IMG/VR virus record: IMGVR_UViG_3300030105_000555
Location: 1 to 23,574 of that record
Direction: 5' to 3' (one strand)
Source of the DNA: a virus
DNA length: 23,574 bases
In this document: in pieces, positions 5,400 to 22,012 of the stretch
How positions within the stretch are numbered: the first letter of the stretch is position 1
How the letters are laid out: each line of letters begins with the position of its first letter
Notes under the pieces: model-generated
Database searches by the model: none
The model's input: only the letters and a program-made list of their open reading frames with translations
Told to the model about the DNA's origin: nothing
Made by a program: the position numbers and the translations under genes

Positions 5400-6560
5400 T
5401 TATGACAGACCTGAAATCTTGATCGAGTCGCCAAAGTTCATGTGCTTTACTGACATCTCGCCGACAATTTGGTGCTTATCGCTATCACCAGATTTTGCTA
5501 ACAGTGTGCGAGTAAATGGACGCAAGGATGTCAACTTAAACATACTTGGGTCAATCAGTAGAGCGTGCGTTGTTTTAAGCTGCCTGTTAAGGACAACTCG
5601 ATATTCGCCATAGGGGGACACATATAGGTCAATAGCATTGACCAATGTCTTACCCTGAGCAATCTCACGGTTTCTTCCCGATGCTGCACTAAAGCCAGCG
5701 ACGATTTGGGCGTCAGCGGGTTTTATCATCAGAGTGTCAACTTCGCTACCATTGTTATAAGCAGTTTGACCCGCTACTAACAACTTTGCCTCTGAAAGGG
5801 CATCCGTAGAATTGCTTCCTGCATCTAAATTTGTGCTGACCTGATTGATAACAGATTGCATCTTACGAGCGGTAGATGCGTTACCAGCAACGGCTGCTTG
5901 GTCTAAGCCGACAAGAGCGTGCTCATAGTCGCGCTTAATTTCCTTGAGGGCTTTCGCCATCTGGTCTTTGTATTCGATAGGTTACGTTACTCACCTACCC
6001 GTTCTCTTACGAACTGCTTATGCTTTCGACACAAGAATAGACTATATCATGTCAGCGGTTTGCTGACCCATGCGCTTCCACCCACTTGGGTGTACTCCCC
6101 GAAGGGATAGTCGTTGCACGTTCCTCACAAAAGTAAGGCTTCGCTCAGGATTACCATGGCTTTTTAGCTTTAGGCTTCCCCTGAATTCACACGGTTTATA
6201 CTACGCTGCCAGCTTTAGGAAATCACTGTAAGTGGTTGTTAACGCAGTTTCTTTTGCTCTACCATGGGTCTTGATAGCGTCACTTGTTTCTGACACTTGA
6301 AAACCCTTAACGAGTATCTGGCAAGTACCAGTACGCTCTGTTGCATCGCCCAAGGTTGCGAAGGCTGCGTCAGCCCCCTCGACAGCGGCATTAACCGCAA
6401 TTGCTGCCAAGCTGTCTTCAAGCCAAGAGTATGTACGTGCTGTAACCTTTTCGGTTTTGAGCATAGCTTGCATAGGAGTCGAAAAAGGACTGATGTTAGA
6501 TATGATATCTGACACGTCCTCAGCTTTTCCCACCTGTGAGTATGTAGTATAAATTGCCAT
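5400..6560 (-). CDS. Major capsid protein, SU10-like, split by a group I intron
   Basis: This gene encodes the shell protein of the head. Exon 1 is 6560..6242 (106 codons plus 1 nt) and exon 2 is 5965..5400. Joining them gives one 294-aa product. Exon 1 holds the N-terminal arm (MAIYTTYSQVGKAEDVSDII, then SPFSTPMQAML) and the strand KGFQVSETSDAIKTHGRAKE. Exon 2 starts inside codon 107 and gives YQMAKALKEIKRDYEHALVG, the long spine helix, then the rest of an HK97-type fold to residue 294. The spliced junction GRAKETA-YQMAKALKE matches the GR-x5-YQ pattern recalled for SU10-like capsid proteins. Unspliced mRNA would stop at a TAG in the intron after 119 residues, and the apparent ATG of the downstream fragment (5960) is Met109, internal to exon 2. 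AAAGGA precedes the start. It follows the scaffold gene. Confidence 0.9.
5966..6241 (-). ncRNA. Group I self-splicing intron, 276 nt, no endonuclease
   Basis: The intron interrupts codon 107 of the capsid gene. P1: exon ACUGCGU (6248-6242) pairs with internal guide GCGUAGU (6206-6200) over 7 positions, with the required U-G pair at the 5' splice site. P10: CUGG (6212-6209) pairs with exon 2 CCAG (5964-5961). P3: CCAUG (6159-6155) with CAUGG (6072-6068). P7: GACUAU (6112-6107) with AUAGUC (6045-6040). P8: GUCAGC/GCUGAC (6067-6051). The P3/P4 strand AAUCCUGAGCGAAGCC and the R and S elements (CAACGACUAUC, AUGAUAUAGUCU) resemble known group I cores of phages and cyanobacterial tRNA introns. The last intron base is G5966. 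No open frame long enough for a homing endonuclease is present. Confidence 0.92.
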
Positions 6561-19922: not shown

Positions 19923-20702
19923 TTATGTCTTCATGATGTAGCAAAGCGCGTAGTATGGAGGTAGGTTAGCATTAGTGGCAGAATCACCCACAGTAGCGTT
20001 AGCAACAGATATTCCAGTGGTGGCGCTTGAGGATTGACCAATGTCAGCATTGCCGCCACCAGCGCGAAGTGTGTAAGCAAAGTCAGAAGCACCAGTTGTT
20101 TCGGCGGCGACTGCGCTGGTAGACCCCACGTTCACGGCACCGGAGACATTTACTTCGCCACTCTTGAATAGCTTATGACTGTGGCCATTATCGGTGACTG
20201 TTGCTGCGTGAGTGTGGCTGACATTGGTAGCATTTGCGGAACCACCAGAGGCGCCCACTGCATAAGTGCTGCCTGCCCCTACTAGGAAACGGTTGCGTAG
20301 GTCTGGGGTGCTGTTGCTACCGTTACATAGGGCATAGCCAGTGGGGATAGCGTTAGCTGCACCAGACCACAACACGATGACACCAGTGGGCACTGAGGCC
20401 AAGCTGCTGATCTGGGTCTGTATTGCACTAGTAACTCCATCCAGATAGTCAAACTCGGCTGGCGTGACCCCTGTGGCATTGAGGGCCTTAGCATAGTTAA
20501 GGTCTGCTACATTGCCTGTGTATCCGTCAAGTGCGTTTAGCTCTGTGTGCGTGCTAGAGACTGCGGCGGTGACGCTAGGAAAGGTATTCTTTAAGGTAGT
20601 CTTAATTAGACGTATGTGGTCGTCAGCTTGCGCTAGACCATCAGTTGACGCTGGGTTAGCAACAACAAGGTCATCTATGTGTGTGCCAGTTTCTAGGCCC
20701 AT
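19923..20702 (-). CDS. Collar-domain tail protein
   Basis: This 259-aa protein carries a phage tail collar domain: VPTGVIVLWSGAANAIPTGY, ALCNGSNSTPDLRNRFLVGA and an N-S-H-T-H-like Asn/His patch (NVSHTHAATVTDNGHSHKLF). The N-terminal part has the rod-like repeats TELNALDGYTGNVADLNYAK and TPAEFDYLDGVTSAIQTQIS, in which the 'LDG' units match tail-fibre stalk repeats of marine phages. It ends LPPYYALCYIMKT, the usual end of collar proteins. AAGGAAACCCAAG precedes ATG. It is the first gene of the late operon and probably part of a receptor-binding appendage. Confidence 0.88.
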   Translation of the reverse strand: MGLETGTHIDDLVVANPASTDGLAQADDHIRLIKTTLKNTFPSVTAAVSSTHTELNALDGYTGNVADLNYAKALNATGVTPAEFDYLDGVTSAIQTQISSLASVPTGVIVLWSGAANAIPTGYALCNGSNSTPDLRNRFLVGAGSTYAVGASGGSANATNVSHTHAATVTDNGHSHKLFKSGEVNVSGAVNVGSTSAVAAETTGASDFAYTLRAGGGNADIGQSSSATTGISVANATVGDSATNANLPPYYALCYIMKT

Positions 20703-20753
20703 CTTGGGTTTCCTTTTCGGTTTTCTAAAGAGGGCTCCTCGTTACGAAGGCCG

Positions 20754-20771
20754 ACAACAACAACAACAACA
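20754..20771. repeat. CAA trinucleotide repeat
   Basis: A run of about six CAA units (GTT on the minus strand) lies in the untranslated leader upstream of the collar-protein gene. It is too short to be coding and would be an unstructured RNA stretch. Its length could vary by replication slippage. Confidence 0.7.
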
Positions 20772-20953
20772 AGACCTTTAGCCCTGCTTTTTGAATTGGT
20801 TTGATTACTTGGGGTACTGGGGGGTCAAAATCGTCTAGGGAACCTAAGCAAATTGATTGATCTCGCGTAACACACTGTAATCACTACGCTATCTGCAAGG
20901 GGGATGTATCATCCCTCGCCAGATGCACACGGATGCAATAGAATACGGGTGCT

Positions 20954-20983
20954 ATTAGACATTAGTCTTGCGAAATTTGTCAG
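20954..20983 (-). promoter_or_regulatory. Candidate sigma70 promoter for the late operon
   Basis: On the minus strand CTGACA (20983-20978, 5 of 6 to the -35 consensus) is followed after 18 nt by TCTAAT (20959-20954, 5 of 6 to the -10 consensus). Transcription would start near 20947 and read into the collar-protein gene through a leader of about 245 nt. It is a pattern match without experimental support. Confidence 0.45.
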
Positions 20984-21036
20984 GAGGGTGCCGTCGGCTT
21001 TTCGTCAGGGATGGGGAACTAATGACCTAAGCGTAC

Positions 21037-21062
21037 CTGGGTAAAATTTACCCTGGGTAAAA
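21037..21062. promoter_or_regulatory. Alternating half-site operator array
   Basis: Three 7-nt half sites alternate in orientation with one base between them: GGGTAAA (21039-21045), A, TTTACCC (21047-21053), T, GGGTAAA (21055-21061). This forms two overlapping perfect palindromes with a period of 8. A partial fourth half site (TACC) lies to the left. Such a compact array is typical of cooperative binding of a dimeric regulator. It lies about 55 nt upstream of the candidate late promoter and just past the DUF1127 stop. Confidence 0.6.
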
Positions 21063-21080
21063 ACACACGAACCAACAGTA

Positions 21081-21305
21081 TCAAATAGTCCTATCGCACC
21101 ATGGACACTTGTGGTGTGCCATCCTCTGTATGTCTGCTCGACCACCAACGATGCCTATATCCTTTAGCTCTCGATTGCTATGGCGCCGTAAGGCGTCAGC
21201 CGCCTCATTAGCGCGACGGTGGAAGCGGTAAGCCTCTACACGACCCAACACCCACAGCTTGCACCCTTGCATCCTTGTGTTGGCGGCTCTTAGTACTCTT
21301 AGCAT
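21081..21305 (-). CDS. DUF1127-type small protein
   Basis: This 74-aa basic protein contains YRFHRRANEAADALRRHSNR followed by ELKDIGIVGGRADIQRM. The segment L-x-x-x-S-(N/D)RELKDIGI-x-R-x-DI is the hallmark of DUF1127, a family of small proteins common in Alphaproteobacteria. Known members include RNA-associated proteins that affect small-RNA processing. This copy has an N-terminal extension and a C-terminal CPWC-x-R tail that could bind metal, which is not usual for the family. It is the only minus-strand gene upstream of the late control region. The start (ATG 21305) is not firmly set; Met12 (21272) is possible. A host-regulating role is inferred. Confidence 0.75.
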   Translation of the reverse strand: MLRVLRAANTRMQGCKLWVLGRVEAYRFHRRANEAADALRRHSNRELKDIGIVGGRADIQRMAHHKCPWCDRTI

Positions 21306-21349
21306 CTTTGGTCATCTTTCTTTATTAACACGATTGGTGAATCAGTTAG

Positions 21350-21405
21350 TGGGCTTGGGAACTAATAGTCTAATAGTCTATCAGTCTATTGCTCTACCAA
21401 GCCCA
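21350..21405. repeat. Inverted repeat enclosing the octamer array
   Basis: TGGGCTTGG (21350-21358) is perfectly complementary to CCAAGCCCA (21397-21405), a 9-bp stem with a 38-nt loop that holds the four octamers. The right arm also pairs with a later TGGGCTT (21432-21438), so two exclusive folds are possible. Confidence 0.6.
21363..21394. repeat. Four tandem octamers
   Basis: TAATAGTC, TAATAGTC, TATCAGTC and TATTGCTC follow one another without spacers; the first two are identical and the others drift. A strict 8-nt period outside a gene suggests a protein-binding array or slippage. Confidence 0.65.
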
Positions 21406-21745
21406 GCCCACTGCTTCACCACCGTAGAGTATGGGCTTCTGCCTCAGTGCTCTTCAGGGGGGAGTGGGCGTCCTTTGTGTTGGTCTCAAAGCCTCGTGGC
21501 GGGGCGGCTATGTGCCCCTCTTTATAAAGGGACAGAATGCAAACTTTATGCTTGTGCGGGATCTCAACGGATGCTATCCCTCCGTCATCGAAGGCGAGCT
21601 AGTGTCTCACAATCGTGGGCGACAGGCCGCAAGGTGTGGCAGGGGACTGTAACTCCCTCCAGCACCTCAGCGGCCCAAGTACCACCCCACCGTGTGGGAT
21701 TGTTGCACAAAGCTAGCCTTCTTCAACCTTTGAAGGAGCTAACGA

Positions 21746-22012
21746 ATGACTAATCTAACCATTTCCAATATCACAGACAACTGTGGAACAGAGTTCAAGC
21801 AGTGCGAACTGCGCAGTGTCAAAGAGGGCACAGAGTTCCGCCGTAAGCTGAACGCAAAATCCTCGTTTACCCGCGAACATTACAACCGCAAGAATGCCTA
21901 CGGAACACAAGGCCCAGCATGCTTCACGTGTGTTGATGCAGATGAGCCATGGGGTGGCCGTGAGGTCTACCTCAAGCCTTCAACCATAGTTTTCGTGGAG
22001 GCAAACCAATGA
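21746..22012 (+). CDS. Unknown 88-aa protein, first gene of plus-strand operon
   Basis: This 88-aa protein has a Cys/Lys/Arg-rich body (NCGTEFKQCELRSVKEGTEF) and the segment GPACFTCVDADEPWGGREVY followed by a hydrophobic beta end (STIVFVEANQ). Four Cys residues in CxxxxxxxC and CxxC arrangements could bind a metal. AAGGAG 7 nt upstream is a strong ribosome-binding site. It overlaps the next gene by ATGA. It is probably an early or middle gene, but function is unknown. Confidence 0.78.
   Translation: MTNLTISNITDNCGTEFKQCELRSVKEGTEFRRKLNAKSSFTREHYNRKNAYGTQGPACFTCVDADEPWGGREVYLKPSTIVFVEANQ

Follow-up and report, generated by a model that had tools for sequence, protein, structure and literature searches.

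DUF1127 proteins (PF06568) make up a family of nearly 25,000 entries in UniProt, of which no structure has been solved and whose mode of action is disputed, RNA binding and protein binding having both been put forward (PMC12501420). On the one side there is CcaF1 of Rhodobacter sphaeroides, an RNA-binding protein that acts together with RNase E (PMC10253847). On the other, the DUF1127 proteins of Agrobacterium act by contact with the sensor kinase PhoR, which also interacts with YjiS of E. coli, and CcaF1 complements the corresponding defect (PMC12501420); for YjiS of Salmonella, in turn, there is no evidence for RNA binding (PMC11707872). In alphaproteobacteria, DUF1127 genes often precede CcsR-like sRNAs, an arrangement represented by the CIN1 locus (PMC10253847). 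Phage members of the family are not treated in the literature that we searched and, among the deposited phage proteins examined, the name DUF1127 is carried by only one, in CRP-603.

The stretch of DNA analysed here (the window, 23,574 nt) belongs to a 38,457-bp IMG/VR phage record, and its source is a marine bacterial virus. A minus-strand ORF in it encodes a protein of 74 residues, MLRVLRAANTRMQGCKLWVLGRVEAYRFHRRANEAADALRRHSNRELKDIGIVGGRADIQRMAHHKCPWCDRTI (conceptual translation), in which the two features pointed out in the sequence-only reading, namely a RELKDIGI core and a CPWC-x-R tail, are both present. The tail reads AHHKCPWC-x-R, that is, the motif starts upstream of CPWC (A63-H64-x2-C67-x2-C70), and it is accompanied by H42 in the core (Table 1). 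With a net charge of +9, 17.6% Arg and a pI of about 11 (computed from the sequence), the protein is small, basic and arginine-rich, as expected of DUF1127 and as seen in CcaF1, the small proteins of Agrobacterium tumefaciens and Salmonella YjiS, with which it also shares a helical character and the (S/T)(D/N)xELxDIGxxRxDI core. In contrast to these cellular relatives, the HxxCxxC tail and His42 belong to the tailed phage family: in eight DUF1127 ORFs from alphaproteobacterial plasmids, position 42 is Leu or Met and there is no CxxC (in two of them, L191 and L193, the residue was taken from the sequence by eye, the first match of the script lying outside the core).

Table 1. Positions of the tailed DUF1127 gene, its main sequence elements and its surroundings in the window.
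Feature	Position	Strand	Basis or remark
Tailed DUF1127 gene	21305 down to 21081	minus	ATG start, 74 aa; ORF map
DUF1127 core, residues 23-59	21129..21239	minus	PF06568 21.2-21.4 bits; hhalign vs canonical phage DUF1127 98.4%
His29 codon	21219..21221	minus	invariant across the tailed family (alignment)
His42 codon, proposed metal ligand	21180..21182	minus	Leu/Met/Phe in each tail-less DUF1127 compared
Tail motif H64-x2-C67-x2-C70 (HHKCPWC), proposed remaining metal ligands	21096..21116	minus	invariant in 24/24 distinct members
Conserved non-coding stretch, tailed gene to tail-collar gene	20703..21080	minus	378 nt; invariant (GTT)5GT run
Tail collar/fibre gene, next downstream, start of virion genes	19923..20702	minus	phrog_5795, phrog_1800
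Divergent intergenic region, tailed gene / plus-strand early genes	21306..21745	.	ORF map

Membership of DUF1127, which had been proposed from the core motif, is borne out when the family is considered as a whole. The window protein itself scores 21.2 bits against the Pfam model (E 2.4e-4), slightly short of the gathering cut-off of 23.3; 21 of the 24 members of the tailed family match the model, and two that were checked singly, L020 (24.3 bits) and L025 (24.7 bits), exceed the cut-off. Profile-profile comparison with canonical, tail-less phage DUF1127 (hhalign) gave 98.4% with an E-value of 7.8e-15, and the tailed and canonical profiles recover each other's members in whole phage records (E 1e-4 to 1e-11). 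The homology of the tailed family to DUF1127 is therefore secure. No solved structure was found by sequence search with the window protein, Foldseek against the PDB and viral models, as well as VIA-align, returned no meaningful match, and PADLOC and NCBIfam gave weak, scattered matches only. By its sequence, then, tailed phage DUF1127 is a variant subfamily of a known family, defined here by the HxxCxxC tail together with His42, both of which are found in the window protein.

A survey of phage genomes retrieved the tailed form from 52 IMG/VR contigs and, by tblastn, from six roseophages of the Autographiviridae (CRP-361, CRP-227, CRP-114, CRP-171, CRP-113 and CRP-125), all with the AHxxCxxC motif; the canonical form occurs in phages as well. 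The roseophage genes, late genes that follow DNA maturase B, belong to the same tailed family as that of the window, with a core identity of 49-62%, but occupy the right end of the genome behind TerL, whereas the window copy is the first gene of a divergent virion operon. They are deposited as hypothetical proteins or without annotation, the latter being the case of OR420755.1 (CRP-113, near 38237-38380) and OR420743.1 (CRP-125, near 36737-36871). Eleven residues are invariant in 24 distinct sequences (H29, L39, H42, L47, D49, G51, R56, A63, H64, C67 and C70), and the tailed gene is under strong purifying selection, the median dN/dS being 0.07 (124 pairs with dS of 0.1-1.5, which are not independent of each other); the gene is kept with intact frames in related phages. 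Neither of the two outcomes that would have spoken against the sequence-only reading, a missing DUF1127 match and an absent or disrupted gene in related phages, was observed. A second contig has an identical copy of the window gene and a third one a 97% copy. The gene is real. The idea of a chance ORF, or of a host gene decaying without function, could draw on the Pfam score slightly below the cut-off and on the missing annotation in some deposited genomes, but it is refuted by the invariant residues of the family alignment, maintained across four genomic positions, and by the dN/dS value, and no broken copies were seen, which leaves it with a negligible probability. Outside phages, two family patterns were run against 84,980 bacterial and archaeal species genomes and revealed no true tailed copy, the subgroup LRMHSTKTLKDIG ('STKTLKD' together with 'AAAHHKC') falling outside those patterns; the lone match, L022 from a Bacteroidetes MAG, lacks the DUF1127 core and was discarded as due to chance. 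The case for a phage-specific branch is therefore strong but not complete: it has been seen so far in phages only.

What distinguishes this branch is concentrated in four residues. Among 124 distinct phage ORFs, all 46 tailed ones combine His at position 42 with HxxCxxC and the 78 tail-less ones have Leu (71), Met (5) or Phe (2) there, with no exception, a split partly shaped by the search, in which His42 and the tail partly served as patterns. A test less affected by this bias agrees: contigs chosen by the tail DNA pattern only have His42 in every DUF1127-like ORF and, conversely, the tail is found in all those chosen by core patterns only. The position of H64 is occupied by Trp in many tail-less phage proteins, so that a core contact may have been converted into a metal site. 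The appearance of two His and two Cys together suggests a single candidate His2Cys2 site, formed by H42, H64, C67 and C70, that would staple the C-terminus to the core. The four invariant His/Cys candidate ligands expected of a zinc protein are present throughout the 24 sequences, and zinc binding is fairly likely; the earlier suggestion that the tail might bind metal agrees well with the invariance of H64, C67 and C70 plus H42. AlphaFold2, whose evidence here consists of secondary structure and pLDDT, places helices at residues 2-40, 44-49 and 56-63 of the window protein and gives the tail block (61-70) a pLDDT of 90; in a 58-aa homologue (mean pLDDT 93), C-P-W-C opens a fourth helix. The tail is thus confidently folded in the models. 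Since CPWC is like CxxC redox motifs and some of these phages encode a glutaredoxin, the cysteine pair might instead act as a redox switch or form a disulfide; nevertheless, the two histidines, H64 and H42, match both cysteines in invariance and are gained or lost with them, and the predicted structure consists of helices only, lacking the strands that a thioredoxin fold would have, which makes a redox role quite improbable.

The canonical, tail-less form is common in marine phages, with at least 380 contigs matched (IMG/VR loci L088-L167). It is represented by phrog_26566 (SIO1, Celeribacter phage P12053L, Lentibacter phage ICBM1, CRP-118, CRP-403, CRP-603 and CRP-235), which has a homologous core and, like the tailed family, occurs as one copy per phage in marine alphaproteobacterial phages, but lacks the Cys tail and has Leu, Met or Phe at position 42. 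The location differs too, as the canonical gene of cobaviruses and CRP-118/403 lies between MazG and ribonucleotide reductase, whereas the tailed gene is found among terminase and virion genes; in P12053L, ICBM1, CRP-118 and CRP-403, the gene in that place is named 'hypothetical protein'. Exactly one DUF1127 gene was found in each of 30 phage records (13 tailed, 17 canonical), never both together, although the records, some of them fragments, were picked for having DUF1127 and the informative part is the lack of a second copy. A tblastn search of plasmids and phages with a synthetic DUF1127 consensus returned nothing, the query probably having been masked as low complexity.

The phage of the window is a mosaic, in which a T7-like RNA polymerase, an integrase and replication genes on the plus strand face a divergent, non-T7 structural module on the minus strand. 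The closest relatives of the polymerase are about 29% identical, and the large terminase is nearest to that of roseophage CRP-7 (38%). The tailed gene opens the minus-strand virion operon, at the junction from which this operon and the plus-strand early genes diverge, so its initial description as being next to the late control region was fair, and late expression is quite likely from this operon position; no convincing repeated phage RNA-polymerase promoter motif was found in the junction. Elsewhere in the window, a group I intron (RF00028, 58.8 bits; 6017-6283, minus strand) splits the major capsid gene into exon ORFs at 6201-6560 and 5400-5960. The intron itself has no evident endonuclease ORF; short matches to it occur in other phages, one of them, from an Erwinia phage, adjoining an HNH homing endonuclease.

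Across phages, the tailed gene appears in four arrangements: between TerS and TerL (L021, L023, L025, L029-L031 and L068, with a small ORF, a putative holin as read from its sequence, separating it from TerL in L023 and L025); right after TerL at the right end (the CRP phages, e.g., CRP-361 and CRP-171, L009-L013, L015-L020, L024 and L060); right before TerS (L014); and heading a divergent virion operon (the window, L007 and most of L032-L072). Mostly it sits beside the terminase genes; in the group of the window, where it heads the virion operon, TerS lies about 9 kb away. The window protein is 77% identical to L039/L020 and 71% to both L021 and L023, all from the TerS-TerL or after-TerL groups, but 60% or less to those of its own structural neighbours, except for the near-copy L059. 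The tree joins it with the same proteins (L039/L020, L021 and L023), on few columns and with a support just under the strict limit. This closer kinship to groups of other arrangements points to the exchange of the tailed gene between phage lineages.

In the group of the window, the gene is followed by about 330-400 nt of non-coding DNA in which sequence blocks and the (GTT)5GT run are kept in all members. Given the CIN1-type sRNAs behind alphaproteobacterial DUF1127 genes, this stretch was tested as RNA. Neither a CcsR-like nor any other Rfam RNA was matched in 20650-21780, the CCUCC motif is not conserved (CCTCC is missing from most downstream regions), and the consensus fold is weak (-9.4 kcal/mol), with almost no covariation (term of -0.26). 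A CIN1-like sRNA locus, in which CcsR-like sRNAs would follow the gene, was consequently rejected: the sequence is conserved, yet there is no Rfam match and no convincing RNA structure. Taken together, these results make it likelier, and indeed probable, that the stretch is either regulatory DNA or the leader of the virion operon mRNA.

As to function, the best explanation overall, which we hold tentatively and slightly short of an even chance, is RNA binding late in infection by a protein with a zinc-stapled C-terminus. The product would be a basic DUF1127 protein, expressed late and built of three helices, from the phage-specific subfamily, in which H42, in the turn between helices 1 and 2, and H64, C67 and C70, after helix 3, would form the His2Cys2 zinc site that staples the C-terminus to the core. 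Its arginine-rich helical face would bind RNA in the manner of CcaF1, and the protein would act late in infection, replacing the DUF1127 proteins of the host or adding to their effect, to alter how stable host or phage transcripts are or how RNase E processes them. A role in RNA processing is a reasonable guess by analogy with CcaF1, and RNA as the target is itself tentative, somewhat less probable than not. This explanation has against it the literature in favour of protein binding (PMC12501420) and the Salmonella YjiS without RNA binding (PMC11707872), as well as the absence of a CIN1-like sRNA array behind the gene and the terminase-adjacent position in most phages, which fits packaging equally.

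Two other functions have to be weighed against it. The protein could contact a host regulator such as PhoR and so raise the phosphate supply for phage DNA synthesis, in line with the PhoR contacts of the Agrobacterium proteins and E. coli YjiS and the complementation by CcaF1 (PMC12501420), with the PhoH, ribonucleotide reductase and MazG encoded by related phages, and with the place of canonical phage DUF1127 between the latter two; the tailed gene, however, lies among late packaging and virion genes, away from those of nucleotide metabolism, and we consider a protein partner of this kind rather unlikely. Small late genes of T7-type phages often lie near the terminase without having a packaging role. 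That weakens the remaining alternative, an accessory of packaging or of the terminase that would bind DNA or the small terminase subunit, which is suggested by the position of the tailed gene between TerS and TerL, directly after TerL or directly before TerS, and by CRP-603 and CRP-2, whose canonical copies lie two genes upstream of TerS. Moreover, the group of the window carries the gene at a distance from TerS, and the canonical DUF1127 of annotated cobaviruses is in the MazG-RNR cluster, which renders a packaging function less probable still.

RNA binding by a zinc-stapled protein thus being favoured, a broader and bolder reading, unlikely in its entirety, is that phages have rebuilt a small regulator of their hosts, adding to the DUF1127 fold a His2Cys2 zinc clamp to give a phage-specific form that hops between lineages and replaces the canonical one, one for one, so as to seize control, late in infection, of RNA turnover in the host or of a regulator that depends on DUF1127. 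The tailed proteins are compact and possibly zinc-stabilised, which makes them suited to structural work and to the search for partners. The existence of a tailed subfamily in which the core never lacks its putative metal site, beside a canonical form present in hundreds of contigs, indicates that a 40-kb phage gains from carrying a DUF1127 function.
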